The notes below the pieces were generated by a model. The model saw only the letters and a list, made by a program, of their open reading frames with translations, was not told the origin of the DNA and searched no databases. 39,087 nucleotides of DNA. Source: Nitratiruptor sp. Lineage in GTDB: Bacteria; Campylobacterota; Campylobacteria; Campylobacterales; Nitratiruptoraceae. Below are positions 20,910 to 25,821 of this stretch, in pieces; position 1 is the first letter of the stretch; every line of letters begins with the position of its first letter. The DNA lies in assembly GCA_015494535.1 (NCBI GenBank), contig WGBC01000093.1:1-39087 (forward strand). The letters run 5' to 3'. The translations under genes were made by a program, and so were the position numbers.

Positions 20910-21616
20910 AGGGGATTGAGCACTTTTACAAGGGAGATCTTTCCCTTTTACAAAAGCCAAAAATCTCCATTGTGGGCAGCCGCAGGCCAAATAGCTACAC
21001 CAAAACGATGACGCTGCGACTTGCTTCTGCACTAGCGCAAAAGGGATATGTGATCGTAAGCGGCGGGGCAATGGGGGTAGATGCCTTGGCGCATAGAGGC
21101 GCAGGGGCTGCCAATACCATAGCAGTGCTGCCCAGCGGTATAGATATTTTATATCCCTCAATCAATAGCAAGCTTTTAGCAGAGATTGGATCAAAAGGGC
21201 TGCTGCTAAGCCAGTTTGAAAAAGACTTCAAGCCCACAAAGTGGAGTTTTGTTGTGCGCAACGAAATCGTAGTGGCTTTGGGAGAGTATCTCATCATCAC
21301 GCAAGCGGATAAAAATAGTGGCAGTATGAGAAGTGCCGAAATTGCCATGAAAATGGGCAAGAAGATTTATGTGCTGCCCCATAGAATTGGGGAGAGCGAT
21401 GGCACCAACTACCTAGCAAAAGAGGGTTTGGCTGAGATTATTTGGGATATTGATGCTTTTGTGCAAGCAAGCAGCAGCGATCCATTTATAGAATATCTCA
21501 AAAGCGCTCCCACCTATGAAGAGGCGATAGCTTTGTATGGGGAGCGGATATTTGAAGCGGAAGTGGATGGGCTTATTGAAGTGCAAAATATGCGAATAGT
21601 GTATAAAGGAGTCTAA
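20897..21616 (+). CDS. dprA: DNA processing protein DprA (short form)
   Basis: Loads RecA onto incoming single-stranded DNA in natural transformation. About 240 residues, lacking the N-terminal SAM and long C-terminal extensions of larger homologues, as in Helicobacter. The Rossmann-like core is complete: ISIVGSRRPNSYTK, VIVSGGAMGVDALAHRGA, TIAVLPSGIDILYP, WSFVVRNEIVVALGEYLII, and the SGSMRSAEIA segment. The TTG at 20897 (GGAGAG four nt upstream) is preferred; an in-frame TTG at 20870 would add nine residues inside the transporter gene. The stop overlaps the htrA start (TAATG). Confidence 0.88.
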   Translation: MVTIEGIEHFYKGDLSLLQKPKISIVGSRRPNSYTKTMTLRLASALAQKGYVIVSGGAMGVDALAHRGAGAANTIAVLPSGIDILYPSINSKLLAEIGSKGLLLSQFEKDFKPTKWSFVVRNEIVVALGEYLIITQADKNSGSMRSAEIAMKMGKKIYVLPHRIGESDGTNYLAKEGLAEIIWDIDAFVQASSSDPFIEYLKSAPTYEEAIALYGERIFEAEVDGLIEVQNMRIVYKGV

Positions 21617-22710
21617 TGCGACGAGCAAATTTAGTGCAAATCGTAGCTATCGTGATTATCGGATTGCTTCTTTATAGAGCAATTCCTCTGATTGAAGTTT
21701 ATATTGCTGCAAATCCCAAGCCAGTGACTCCACGTGGTAGCCTTATGGAGCTAGAAAAAAGCAATATCGAAATCTTTGAGAGGGCAAAGCCTAGCGTAGT
21801 TTATATCTCTACCTTGCAAAAGGTGGTGGATTATTGGAATATGAGCGTACTTGACGTGCCAAAGGGTACAGGAAGCGGCTTTGTGTGGGATAGGTTTGGA
21901 CATATTGTCACAAACTACCATGTTATAGAGGGGGCAAGCGAAGCGATAGTGACGCTAAGCAATGGACTAGGCTATAGGGCTAGATTGGTGGGAGCCGCGC
22001 CAAAATATGATCTAGCGGTGCTCAAAATCAAGCCAATACCTGGAGTAATGAAGCCTGTAATCATTGGAGATAGCGCAAAGCTAAAAGTGGGGCAAATCGT
22101 TTATGCGATAGGCAATCCCTTTGGGCTTGACTGGACGATGACGATGGGGATCATTTCTGCTCTTGATAGGGTAATTAATGAAGAGAGTGGCGCAAAGATT
22201 AAAGGTGCGATCCAAACCGATGCTGCTATCAATCCTGGCAACTCTGGAGGGCCTCTTTTGGATAGTGCCGGCAGAGTCATAGGCGTCAATACCGCGATAT
22301 ATAGTCCCAATGGAGCAAATGCTGGCATCGGCTTTGCAATTCCAATTAATCTCGTCAATAGGGTAGTTAGCTCACTTATTGCTTATGGCAAATATGTGCC
22401 TCCAACTCTTGGAGTAGTCAGCGATGATAGGATCAATGCACTTTTGCATAAGCGCTTTGGTATTGATGGGGTGGCTGTGCTTAATGTGGTGCCAAACTCG
22501 CCCGCAGAGGCGATCGGGCTTAAACCAACCATCATCTATCCCGATGGTACTATCTATTTTGGCGATATTATTTTGGCAATTGACGGCAAGAGAATAGAGA
22601 GCTTTGAGCAGCTGCAAGATGTGCTGTCCCAATACAATCATGGCGACAGGGTGCAACTAAAGATCTTACGAGAAAATAGGGAGTTGACGATCGCGGCGGA
22701 GTTGATGTGA
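21616..22710 (+). CDS. Membrane-anchored HtrA/DegS-like serine protease
   Basis: 364 residues. One N-terminal membrane segment (residues about 8-30) replaces a cleavable signal, so the protease should face the periplasm while anchored. The trypsin-like domain has an intact triad: His102 (TNYHVIEG), Asp132 (KYDLAVLK) and Ser210 (NPGNSGGPLLD). A single C-terminal PDZ domain starts near residue 255, with DIILAIDGKRIESFEQL. One anchor plus one PDZ matches DegS architecture rather than DegP. Downstream, the cas6 remnant ATG overlaps its TGA by one base. Confidence 0.9.
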   Translation: MRRANLVQIVAIVIIGLLLYRAIPLIEVYIAANPKPVTPRGSLMELEKSNIEIFERAKPSVVYISTLQKVVDYWNMSVLDVPKGTGSGFVWDRFGHIVTNYHVIEGASEAIVTLSNGLGYRARLVGAAPKYDLAVLKIKPIPGVMKPVIIGDSAKLKVGQIVYAIGNPFGLDWTMTMGIISALDRVINEESGAKIKGAIQTDAAINPGNSGGPLLDSAGRVIGVNTAIYSPNGANAGIGFAIPINLVNRVVSSLIAYGKYVPPTLGVVSDDRINALLHKRFGIDGVAVLNVVPNSPAEAIGLKPTIIYPDGTIYFGDIILAIDGKRIESFEQLQDVLSQYNHGDRVQLKILRENRELTIAAELM

Positions 22711-23100
22711 TGGAGTTTTTTGAATTAAAAGTGGACTGGAGTTAAAGGCAAAAATTGGAATTTTTGATGTATATGAGCCTCTAAGCAAATTAATGGCAAC
22801 TGCCTTGACACATGGTGGGATGCCCCAGTGGCATAGCAAAAGAGGGCTGAAGCACTACGGTTGTGAAGGGTTTGGCAAAAATGAGAGTAAGAGCTATGAA
22901 GCGGGAGAGTATAGCTTTCGCATACGTTCATGCAAAAAGGAGATCATAACCGCCACTATGCAAGGGCTTTTGGGGTATGAAGATAAGATCTTTGGTATAA
23001 AAAATTTGCAAATAAAGCCTAAAAAAGTTACTACTATCAATGCACTTCTTACTATCACTCCCTCTGTAATCTCCTTTGTCAAAGAGGGCAAGAGGTTTGA
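22710..23100 (+). pseudogene. cas6: cas6 remnant, N-terminal part (CRISPR RNA endonuclease)
   Basis: Remains of a Cas6 repeat-processing nuclease. The ATG at 22710 overlaps the htrA TGA and reads MEFFELKVDWS before a stop; a frameshift near 22740 restores the frame (LKAKIGIFDVYEPLSKLMA). The open part then shows the Cas6 N-terminal ferredoxin-fold pattern: HSKRGLKHYGCEGFG, YSFRIRSCKKEI and INALLTITPSVIS, the last matching the conserved 'TPV' element. After KRFDWTL at about 23100 the Cas6 sequence stops and Cas4 sequence begins in another frame. The C-terminal half is gone. Family assignment is by motif pattern only, but position at the head of the locus fits type I-B. Confidence 0.72.
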
Positions 23101-23363
23101 TTGGACGCTGCGAAGTGGCAGCTATTGTTTTATCTCTATAAACTCAAGCAAAAGGGGATCGTAAAAAAAGGGCGTTTGGAAGTTTTTGAGAAAAATAGGC
23201 AAAACAAAAAGCGTTTTGATGTGGTATTGGATAGCAAGAGTGAGGATAGATTAGGAAAAGTTTTGCAAGAGTTACAGGGACTCATTGCAGCACCAGCGCC
23301 ACCTGCACCAAAATATGAGAAAAAGTGCAAAAGTGCGCCTATTTTGCATACTGTTTCATTTAG
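23101..23363 (+). pseudogene. cas4: cas4 remnant, C-terminal part (Fe-S nuclease of spacer acquisition)
   Basis: The frame opens at the deletion joint with DAAKWQLLFYLYKLKQKGI, the conserved QxxxY helix of Cas4, then KGRLEVFEKNRQNKK and the KVLQELQGLI helix. The C-terminal iron-sulphur Cys cluster is split by a frameshift: one frame gives EKKCK, and the next frame gives KCAYFAYCFI followed by TAG at 23361. Adding one A to the AAAA at 23329-23332 restores CKKCAYFAYC, the family C-x2-C-x5-C. The N-terminal half, with its nuclease acidic residues and first Cys, is missing. The frame left by this slip runs on into the downstream gene, creating a misleading 275-codon fusion. Confidence 0.8.
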
Positions 23364-23370
23364 TGAGTGG

Positions 23371-23928
23371 ATGATGGAAGAGTTGAGACAATTAGCTGAT
23401 CTGATAGAAAAGTATAGAGTCAAGATAGTAGATAATGAAGAGTATGAGCATTACTACTATGTAGATTATGCGCATCTCAATAGTGATTTAGATAGGGTAT
23501 TGGATGCTATTAAAGAGTTTATCGATACCAAGTTTGCCGCAAAATTTTTGCATACCTACGGCAGCGATGAGCAGATGCTGCAAGAAATCGAAGAGGTGCT
23601 GCAAGAGTTTGCCAAAGAGTGCAATAAATTAAAGGGAATCTATAAAAGCCTTCAAGATTATGAGCTTTTTGATGAGGTGCTTGGCCTTTATAGAAAGATC
23701 ATCGCAAAAGTTTTGAGACAGATAGATCTTTTTTTGACGAAATTAGAAAATCTTGTTTTGCGTGGAGGTGAGGGGAGTTTGGTGTTTGAGCTTGATGTTG
23801 AGGATGAGGTGCAAGCCATAAGAGCAAAGCTGCAAAGAAGCGATAAAGGCTCCTGGCTTTTGAGTCTTTTAGCGGGGTTTGGGCTGGGATGGCTCATATT
23901 TGGAGGAGATGGGGAGTGTGAAAACTAG
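23371..23928 (+). CDS. Unknown helical protein with C-terminal membrane segment, inside the cas operon
   Basis: 185 residues from the ATG at 23371; I do not recognise the family. It begins 7 nt after the original cas4 stop, and its last 11 nt overlap the GTG start of cas1, so it was part of the operon between cas4 and cas1. The protein is charged and almost wholly helical (for example DRVLDAIKEFIDTKF, EIEEVLQEFAKECNKLK, LGLYRKIIAKVLRQIDLFLTKL). It ends in a glycine-rich hydrophobic stretch (SWLLSLLAGFGLGWLIFGG, about residues 161-179) with a short acidic tail, suggesting a tail-anchored membrane protein. No catalytic motif is visible. Unlike its cas4 and cas1 neighbours, the frame is undamaged. 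The start could alternatively be the second ATG at 23374. Confidence 0.7.
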   Translation: MMEELRQLADLIEKYRVKIVDNEEYEHYYYVDYAHLNSDLDRVLDAIKEFIDTKFAAKFLHTYGSDEQMLQEIEEVLQEFAKECNKLKGIYKSLQDYELFDEVLGLYRKIIAKVLRQIDLFLTKLENLVLRGGEGSLVFELDVEDEVQAIRAKLQRSDKGSWLLSLLAGFGLGWLIFGGDGECEN

Positions 23929-24865
23929 ATATATCTTTAGCATGGGAGAGATTAGGCGCAAGGACAATTCTATTGCCTTTAAAAATCAAAAGGAATGGAA
24001 CTATATTCCCATTGAGGGCGTTAGGGAGATTTACTTTTTCAACGAAGTGAGTCTCGATACGAAGTTTTTGGATTTCCTTGCAAAAGCGGGAGTCATAGCA
24101 CACTTTTTCAACTACTATGGCCATTATAGCGGCATTTTTTATCCCAGAGAAAGCCTCATTAGCGGCAGACTCCACATCCTCCAAGCCGACGCTATTTGCA
24201 CAAAAGGCTTATTATCGCAAAGGCAATCGTCAAAGCTAGTGCGCTTAATGTACACGAAGTCCTCTACCACTACTATAGGCATGAGAGAAAAGTGCTCAAA
24301 ACGCTTTTGGATTGGCTAAGAAAAGATGTAACGAAACTTTTGGAGAAAAGTCTTTAGTTAAATCTGCTGCTTTTTATCGAGGGACAGATTTGGAATAGGT
24401 TTTATGATAGCTTCAAGCACTTTTTGCCTCAAGATTTCTTGATGGATAGGCGTGTCAAGCGGCCGCCAGATAATCCTATGAATACATTGATAAGTTTTGG
24501 TAATAACCAAGACAATTACGGCTATCTATCATACGCATCTTAATCAAAGCATTAGCTATCTACACGAGCCAAGCGAGAGCAGATTTAGTTTGAGTTTGGA
24601 TCTGAGCGAGGCTTTCAAGCCAATTATCGTATTTCGCACCATATTTGAGCTTGTCAATCGGCGTAAAATCCAAGTAGCTAAACATTTTGACAAAGAACTC
24701 AATTACGCACTGCTCAACCAAGAGGGTAAGAAGATTTTTATCAGTGCGTTTGAAGAGCGCTTGAATGAGAAGTTTAAGCATCCAAGATTAAAAAGGCTTA
24801 CAAGCTACCAAAGCGCTATCAAATATGATGGGTATAAGCTTATTAAATTTTTATATAGAGGGTAG
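23918..24865 (+). pseudogene. cas1: cas1 pseudogene (CRISPR integrase) with two frameshifts and a stop
   Basis: Reads from GTG 23918 (GGAGGAGA upstream) as a type I-B-like Cas1: MGEIRRKDNS, YIPIEGVREIYFFNEVSLDTKFLDFL and FYPRESLISGRLHILQADA. At the AAAA of 24202-24205 the frame slips; the next frame continues with RLIIAKAIVKASALNVHEVLYHYYRHE. An in-frame TAG at 24355 follows LLEKSL, then LLLFIEGQIWNRFYDSF and RRVKRPPDNPMNTLISFGN. A second shift near 24497-24505 leads to AIYHTHLNQSISYLHEP and SLDLSEAFKPIIVFRTIF. The metal-binding Glu (IEGQ), His (YLHEP) and Asp (LDLSEAF) are all still encoded, so decay looks recent. Confidence 0.9.
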
Positions 24866-24898
24866 GGAGTTTATGCCTTTTTTGCTCAAGGAGAAGAT

Positions 24899-25198
24899 GT
24901 GAAAAAGAGGTATAAGTTCAATTACGTTTTTGTGATGTACGATATAGCAGTTGAGGAGAGCGAAGCTGGTAAGAATAGGGTAGCAAAAGTCTTTAAAGTC
25001 TGCAAAAAATATCTCAACCATCATCAAAAAAGCATTTTTCTCGGTGAGAGCACGCCTTCAAATCTTTTGAAACTGCGTAAAGAGTTATTGGAAGTAATAG
25101 ATCAAGATTTGGATACCATAACTATCGTAAAGCTTCCAAGCGCAAGCAGTTTTGAAGAAGAACAAATCGGGGTTGTGCATAACGAATGGTTTTTATGA
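24899..25198 (+). CDS. cas2: CRISPR-associated endonuclease Cas2
   Basis: 99 residues, normally the structural partner of Cas1 in spacer integration. The ferredoxin fold is readable: strand 1 YVFVMYDIA with the conserved Asp15, the helix with KNRVAKVFKVCKKYLN, strand HHQKSIFLGES, and the C-terminal strands DTITIVKL and EEEQIGVVHNEWFL. The GTG start follows AAGGAGA. The frame is intact, but with cas1 broken and no array in the window it is probably an orphan. Last gene of the decayed locus. Confidence 0.88.
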   Translation: MKKRYKFNYVFVMYDIAVEESEAGKNRVAKVFKVCKKYLNHHQKSIFLGESTPSNLLKLRKELLEVIDQDLDTITIVKLPSASSFEEEQIGVVHNEWFL

Positions 25199-25654: not shown

Positions 25655-25729
25655 TGGGGTGTCGCCAAGCGGTAAGGCAGCGGGTTTTGGTCCCGCCATT
25701 CGGGGGTTCGAATCCTCCCACCCCAGCCA
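25655..25729 (+). tRNA. tRNA-Gln (TTG anticodon)
   Basis: A 75-nt cloverleaf. The acceptor arm TGGGGTG pairs with CACCCCA. The anticodon stem GCGGG/CCCGC encloses the loop TTTTGGT with anticodon TTG. The T-arm loop contains GTTCGAATC. CCA is encoded at the 3' end. Charging probably uses the GatCAB route, since gatC is present at 7292-7585. Confidence 0.96.
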
Positions 25730-25744
25730 CAATCCCTCAAATAA

Positions 25745-25821
<77 letters not shown>

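Follow-up and report, generated by a model that had tools for sequence, protein, structure and literature searches.

An unnamed protein with a predicted helical bundle, encoded beside cas4 in type I-B cas operons of Campylobacterota

The relic type I-B locus

The window, which is the whole 39,087-nucleotide stretch of Nitratiruptor sp. DNA analyzed here (contig WGBC01000093.1), carries on its plus strand a relic type I-B CRISPR locus positioned between an HtrA-like protease gene and two tRNA genes. Its features are as follows.

21616-22710: HtrA-like protease gene (trypsin-like and PDZ domains)
22793-23164, plus strand: possible cas6 remnant, weak (TIGR01877 E 0.0057, under its cut-off; no Pfam match)
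23101-23363, plus strand: cas4 remnant, C-terminal half in two frames, running to the former stop codon (PF01930 E 7.3e-15; tblastn with G016 Cas4)
23374-23928, plus strand: gene X, helical-bundle protein of an unnamed family, 184 aa (185 aa from ATG 23371) (open frame, homologs, dN/dS, AlphaFold)
23851-23907, plus strand: hydrophobic stretch near the C-terminus of X in which glycines alternate, a borderline membrane segment (alignment, hydropathy, pLDDT)
23918-24896, plus strand: cas1 (type I-B) remnant, four frame pieces with one internal stop (TIGR03641 E 6.2e-30 and 7.8e-47 for two pieces; tblastn)
24899-25198, plus strand: cas2, open frame (PF09827 E 2.5e-18; TIGR01573 above cut-off)
25655-25821: two tRNA genes, the other flank of the relic locus

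The cas4 remnant corresponds to residues 76-162 of the 162-residue protein of genome G016. When 12 genes of the G016 operon were compared with the window by tblastn (E <= 0.01), only cas4, X, cas1, and cas2 gave matches. The CRISPR repeat core of G132, which matches 18 times in the G132 region (L010), was not found in the window with up to three mismatches allowed, and the sole direct repeat near cas2 is a pair of tRNA ends.

A preliminary description of this DNA reported an intact 185-codon frame at 23371-23928, beginning 7 nt after the original cas4 stop and overlapping the cas1 GTG by 11 nt. We confirm the open frame from the first ATG, its distance from the former cas4 stop (TAG, 23361-23363), and the overlap with the GTG at 23918. 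The second ATG (23374) coincides with the aligned Met of five cas-associated homologs, 9-12 nt past the cas4 stop, and X is therefore probably 184 residues long. The window gene stops three codons past the stop of its relatives in the alignment.

The same description held that X stayed open while both neighbors decayed. X is indeed open, with cas4 and cas1 broken, but it is not the sole survivor, as cas2 is open too. Five lesions fall within the 1,239 nt of cas1 and cas4. At this density an open X is expected by chance with P 0.11-0.13, and X and cas2 are jointly open with P 0.03-0.06; no new role of X in the window follows from these values. The survival of X is compatible with chance. Whether X lacks any selected role in the window, its open frame simply persisting in a dead locus, we consider evenly balanced. 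The single-gene probability, the displaced stop codon, and the truncation of X in G483 (see below) all point that way, against which stand the lower joint probability with cas2 and a window-G016 dN/dS of 0.10 for X, although dS is saturated in this pair and the ratio mostly reflects time before decay.

Homologs of X and their distribution

Seven copies of X were found, the window included, and six of these lie directly after cas4. Identity to the window protein is 61% for G016, 40-42% for G132, G425, G435, and the cut-short copy of G483, and 26% for G207. The G016 gene resides in an intact type I-B operon with the order cas4-X-cas1-cas2, where the end of X and the start of cas1 share 4 nt. Because a full-length, 61% identical homolog occupies the same position in an intact operon, X is more than a chance frame; it is a true coding gene, and its family is unnamed. 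RhuM-Fic separates X from cas1 in G132, and in G425 and G435 X is likewise followed by the beginning of RhuM, on contigs that end before cas1. Tight spacing and the same junction in other loci support the proposal that X was a bona fide operon member between cas4 and cas1. The homologs that had been sought at this junction in other campylobacterotal I-B loci do exist, G016 being an example, and they are not confined to sites outside cas loci, where only one of the seven resides. In G483 (L059:1-217), the C-terminus of X is cut short and is followed by an apparent transposase start, recognized by eye, and the contig ends before cas1.

Among G132, G425, G435, and G483, dN/dS ranges from 0.17 to 0.26 for X and from 0.07 to 0.12 for cas4 (six pairs each). 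These ratios indicate that purifying selection acts on X among close genomes, and the possibility that the frame is under no coding constraint thus finds no support. Between G016 and G132, X is 43.5% identical, compared with 74.1% for Cas4, 83.7% for Cas1, and 72.3% for Cas2, showing that X diverges faster than its neighbors. Separately, G132 (L010) and G435 (L058) differ by a synonymous divergence of 0.24 in X versus 0.69 in cas4. Along X this divergence is unevenly spread, a hint that the two genes have recombined.

X is rare. A draw of 397 genomes across the phylum yielded accepted matches in four of them; the searches had listed 5 and 11 matches, and those judged not to be X were removed from the count. 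Removed were L009 from the shorter list and, from the longer one, seven partial matches of 20-24 bits, five of them within frames of more than 1,200 residues; L003 and L004, matches of a separate genome search, were dropped as well. Within the family of G132 the gene is present in 4 of 150 genomes, and the genus of G207 has it in 1 of 14. A scan of GTDB species contigs returned four X loci; G016 and G207 were not among them, so that scan misses copies. Searches of plasmids and phages by tblastn and of viral contigs in two scans found no homologs, which argues against X being a known mobile-element gene.

The most divergent copy, from G207, is found in the order coaE-dapF-X-rarA with no cas genes around. 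It scores 47.1 bits with a profile built without it, versus 9.6 for the best of 1000 shuffles, and 35.2 bits with the tail removed. The other 13 genomes of its genus show no match to X, and the genes upstream of rarA differ among them. The Cas1 search matched 96 genomes, and G207 is absent from that set, assuming that its draw is the same as the phylum draw of the X search. Patchy presence and a relative outside cas loci are features that cargo genes show. In another genome, G329 (L068:378-1504), ORFs that by eye resemble a cas7 end and a cas5 immediately precede rarA, which in G207 comes after X.

Predicted structure, tail, and family searches

AlphaFold models the window protein with a pTM of 0.74 and helices at residues 2-21, 33-60, 66-95, 102-130, and 144-156. 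The G132 copy yields a pTM of 0.77. Both have a C-terminal end with pLDDT below 50, starting from residue 160 in the window protein. The predicted helical bundle agrees with the description of X as helical and charged.

The supposed C-terminal membrane segment fares less well. A hydrophobic, glycine-alternating stretch with an acidic end is present, but its strength is marginal in the window protein and lower still in the relatives: the Kyte-Doolittle maximum over a 19-residue window is 1.54 for the window protein and 1.22-1.45 for its intact relatives. An insertion scale gives -0.03 kcal/mol for the window, +0.43 for G016, +3.24 for G132, +2.59 for G425, +3.24 for G435, and +6.74 for G207. 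Thus, the designation "tail-anchored" is not established.

X has no convincing match to known families, as anticipated by the statement that it is not a standard Cas family. Pfam PF09686 matches the window protein with E 0.00077 (20 bits, below the cut-off of 23.1) and the G016 copy with E 0.012, whereas G132 and G207 give nothing at E <= 0.1. NCBIfam ICE_RAQPRD, in a search that covered the window protein, reaches E 0.00071 and 19.7 bits against a cut-off of 50. Both matches are taken as reflecting the helical make-up of X. PADLOC places X in no family (best E 0.016 for the window, with nothing common to the relatives), and the PHROGs family phrog_21576 is matched by the G016 copy only (E 0.00059), the weak PHROGs matches again not being common to the relatives. 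Foldseek comparisons with the PDB and BFVD return nothing at E <= 0.001, the VIA fold matches are generic, uninformative bundles, and a profile search of PDB sequences (best E 2.2e-05) turns up helical chains for the most part, designed coiled coils among them. Talin-rod, syntaxin-like, and other known helical-bundle families were considered, but no fold match was informative. HEPN nucleases, an all-helical toxin family, carry a conserved R-x4-6-H motif; in a six-sequence alignment, X has no Arg or His among its invariant columns and does not fit this family.

The cas4-cas1 junction

We examined 64 loci with a Cas1 match, 30 returned by the search and 34 fetched from its 96 matching genomes. 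Comparable junctions, those of loci in the order cas4, cas1, cas2, number 33. In 28 of these cas4 adjoins cas1 directly (-5 to 65 nt). X is found in two, those of G016 and of G132, the latter together with RhuM-Fic; the remaining gene-bearing junctions hold RhuM-Fic alone, a Bro-N-like gene, and an 88-aa membrane protein with a 331-aa gene (one each). As for the other 31 loci, 25 have a Cas2-like ORF, recognized by eye, between cas4 and cas1, and six have no cas4 that we could find. A core adaptation protein is one found in most modules of its type, and X, present at 2 of 33 junctions, is not of that kind.

The three X-bearing rows of the Cas1 tree (34 rows) form one clade (94/92). The Cas4 tree (35 rows, six with X) requires two changes to account for the X rows, and none of 200 bootstrap trees (0%) unites them in a single group; this tree is poorly resolved, with 10 of 32 inner branches starred. 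A single origin of X is supported by the Cas1 tree and not by the Cas4 tree.

The effector genes beside X vary. Next to cas4, X is combined with a Cst2/Cas5t effector in G435, where both proteins pass their cut-offs. The effectors of G425 and G016 are Csh2/Cas5h-like, with both scores below the cut-offs in G425, and with Cas5h above and Csh2 below in G016. X thus keeps to the adaptation side while the effector modules differ. The exchange of effectors by adaptation modules is known (PMC5704561); X moves with such a Cas4-Cas1-Cas2 module, yet it is missing from most.

The junction filled by two unnamed genes belongs to G083 (L112:7706-8954), where the 88-aa membrane protein ends in GLGIGWIIGSDDE and is accompanied by the orphan 331-aa gene. 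Neither protein has a Pfam or PADLOC match, and the 331-aa protein has no relative in 394 genomes, plasmids, and viral contigs. The 88-aa protein is unrelated to X, is encoded directly after cas4, and has the same kind of tail. It scores 14.4 bits with the X profile, whereas its own shuffled versions, 2000 in number, reach 7.5 at most; among 2108 ORFs, however, a 322-aa ORF of L009 with no relation to X attains 16.4, so the likeness of the tails is suggestive only.

Non-cas genes in the operons

For the survey of cargo genes, 34 operon regions were inspected. G425, G435, and G483 were included for having X, so the count rests on the other 31. We read 16 of these as having one or more non-cas genes (minimum length 75 aa) inside the operon, one region (L119) is decayed, and 14 have none, which is an upper bound since some regions end at a contig edge. 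Cst-type cas8 and cas5 genes that carried no label were recognized by eye and excluded from the cargo count.

The identified cargo comprises the reverse transcriptase UG13a, YhcG, RhuM-Fic, PemK/MazF-like, GNAT, nucleotidyltransferase, Fic, and Bro-N proteins, and a PIN gene behind a PhdYefM-like ORF (29.7 bits vs a cut-off of 29.8). SIR2-like, HIRAN, and metallo-beta-lactamase-like proteins are also represented, and G302 has a PD-T4-5-like gene. Pfam gives no match for the small ORFs that accompany the MazF, GNAT, and nucleotidyltransferase genes; for example, the GNAT gene of G419 (L129) and the MazF-like gene of G056 (L124) each reside between cas3 and cas4 behind a small ORF of this kind. 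Septu PtuA is found between cas8 and cas7 in G087 (L118) and G235 (L127), with PtuB next in G087. The operon of G016 (L011) is a single type I-B operon with YhcG, a defense reverse transcriptase of the UG13a kind, a PhdYefM-PIN-like pair, and X.

Several cargo genes change position. Bro-N was tested in G167, and look-alikes recognized by eye are found at cas3-cas4 in G156, G239, and G266 and at cas4-cas1 in G241. YhcG lies between cas7 and cas5 in G016 and between cas3 and cas4 in G435. Because RhuM-Fic, Bro-N, and YhcG appear at more than one junction or without X, position at a junction assigns no adaptation role; the junctions admit genes whether or not these have to do with adaptation.

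Earlier work (PMC3936711, available in part) had described toxin-antitoxin and Fic genes within type I cas loci. Our loci resemble those described there in having same-strand foreign genes between cas genes, and PhdYefM-PIN and Fic recur. X differs in belonging to none of the families named in that part of the report and in staying beside cas4 in one module lineage.

Interpretation

With moderate confidence, we regard X as an accessory, probably anti-phage, cargo gene of campylobacterotal type I-B cas operons that sits beside cas4 in one adaptation-module lineage. X would have entered the cas4-cas1 junction of this lineage once or twice and remained beside cas4 since. It is presumably translated along with Cas4 and Cas1, its helical bundle may bind or sense a partner, and the short glycine-alternating tail could dock on the inner membrane or on another protein. 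The defense and toxin-antitoxin-type genes at neighboring junctions suggest, if indirectly, that X may act against phages in the manner of abortive infection, either by itself or coupled to CRISPR. The window operon is a relic with X still open, and chance survival, which concerns the window and not the intact loci, is compatible with this reading. Position, tight spacing, purifying selection, rarity, differing effectors, and the copy away from cas genes count in favor of cargo. Counted against it, PADLOC assigns X to no family, the X-bearing loci form one Cas1 clade, which fits an adaptation-linked gene too, and X kept to one junction, unlike Bro-N and YhcG.

The main rival is a lineage-specific adaptation factor that would bind Cas4 or Cas1-Cas2 so as to tether or adjust the processing of prespacers, possibly at the membrane. 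This we consider unlikely, if still worth weighing. Cas4 directly precedes X in all six cas-associated copies, X stays with the adaptation side under differing effectors, the X rows form one clade in the Cas1 tree, and the spacing is tight, down to the 4-nt overlap with cas1 in G016. However, X is missing from 31 of 33 cas4-cas1 junctions, 28 of them gene-free; its G207 homolog has no cas genes around in a genome outside the Cas1-match set; it diverges faster than Cas4, Cas1, and Cas2; and RhuM-Fic intervenes between X and cas1 in G132. The membrane component of spacer acquisition that had been proposed is not borne out, given the empty junctions, the three that hold other cargo, the G207 copy, and the weak tail anchor. 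Another reading, in which X is a dedicated Cas4-Cas1-Cas2 docking factor of one type I-B lineage and its GxGxGW-acidic tail a docking signal common to the 88-aa protein of G083, is also unlikely. The last alternative, a passenger serving its own persistence (antitoxin-like, addictive, or selfish) with no part in immunity, would suit the toxin-antitoxin-type genes at nearby junctions, the rarity of X, and the outlasting of cas4 and cas1 by X and cas2 in the window, but it is improbable, as the X loci have no partner gene in common (G016 has none between X and cas1; RhuM adjoins X in G132, G425, and G435) and X matches no toxin or antitoxin family.

Within the part of the open-access literature that was covered, no gene of the X kind was found. 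CreTA (PMC12737573) is likewise an accessory element within a type I-B locus, but it is an RNA toxin-antitoxin pair controlled by Cascade, whereas X is a protein of 179-184 aa under amino-acid constraint. Like X, the type III effectors Cam1, Csx23, and Cap1 are CRISPR-linked and possibly meet the membrane; they are reported to answer type III nucleotide signals, whereas X resides in type I-B operons and has no recognized sensor domain.

X adds an unnamed protein family to the genes riding in type I-B operons. The junctions between cas genes of Campylobacterota serve as berths for defense and toxin-antitoxin-type genes, which makes X and the 88-aa and 331-aa pair of G083 promising candidates for novel anti-phage functions. 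Should X aid spacer acquisition instead, CRISPR memory formation would gain a new component.

We also note that, between cas5 and cas3, the operon of G053 (L136) contains the genes for a methyltransferase and a specificity subunit of type I restriction-modification, along with an ATPase gene and one more gene, and that cas1 of this genome is broken.
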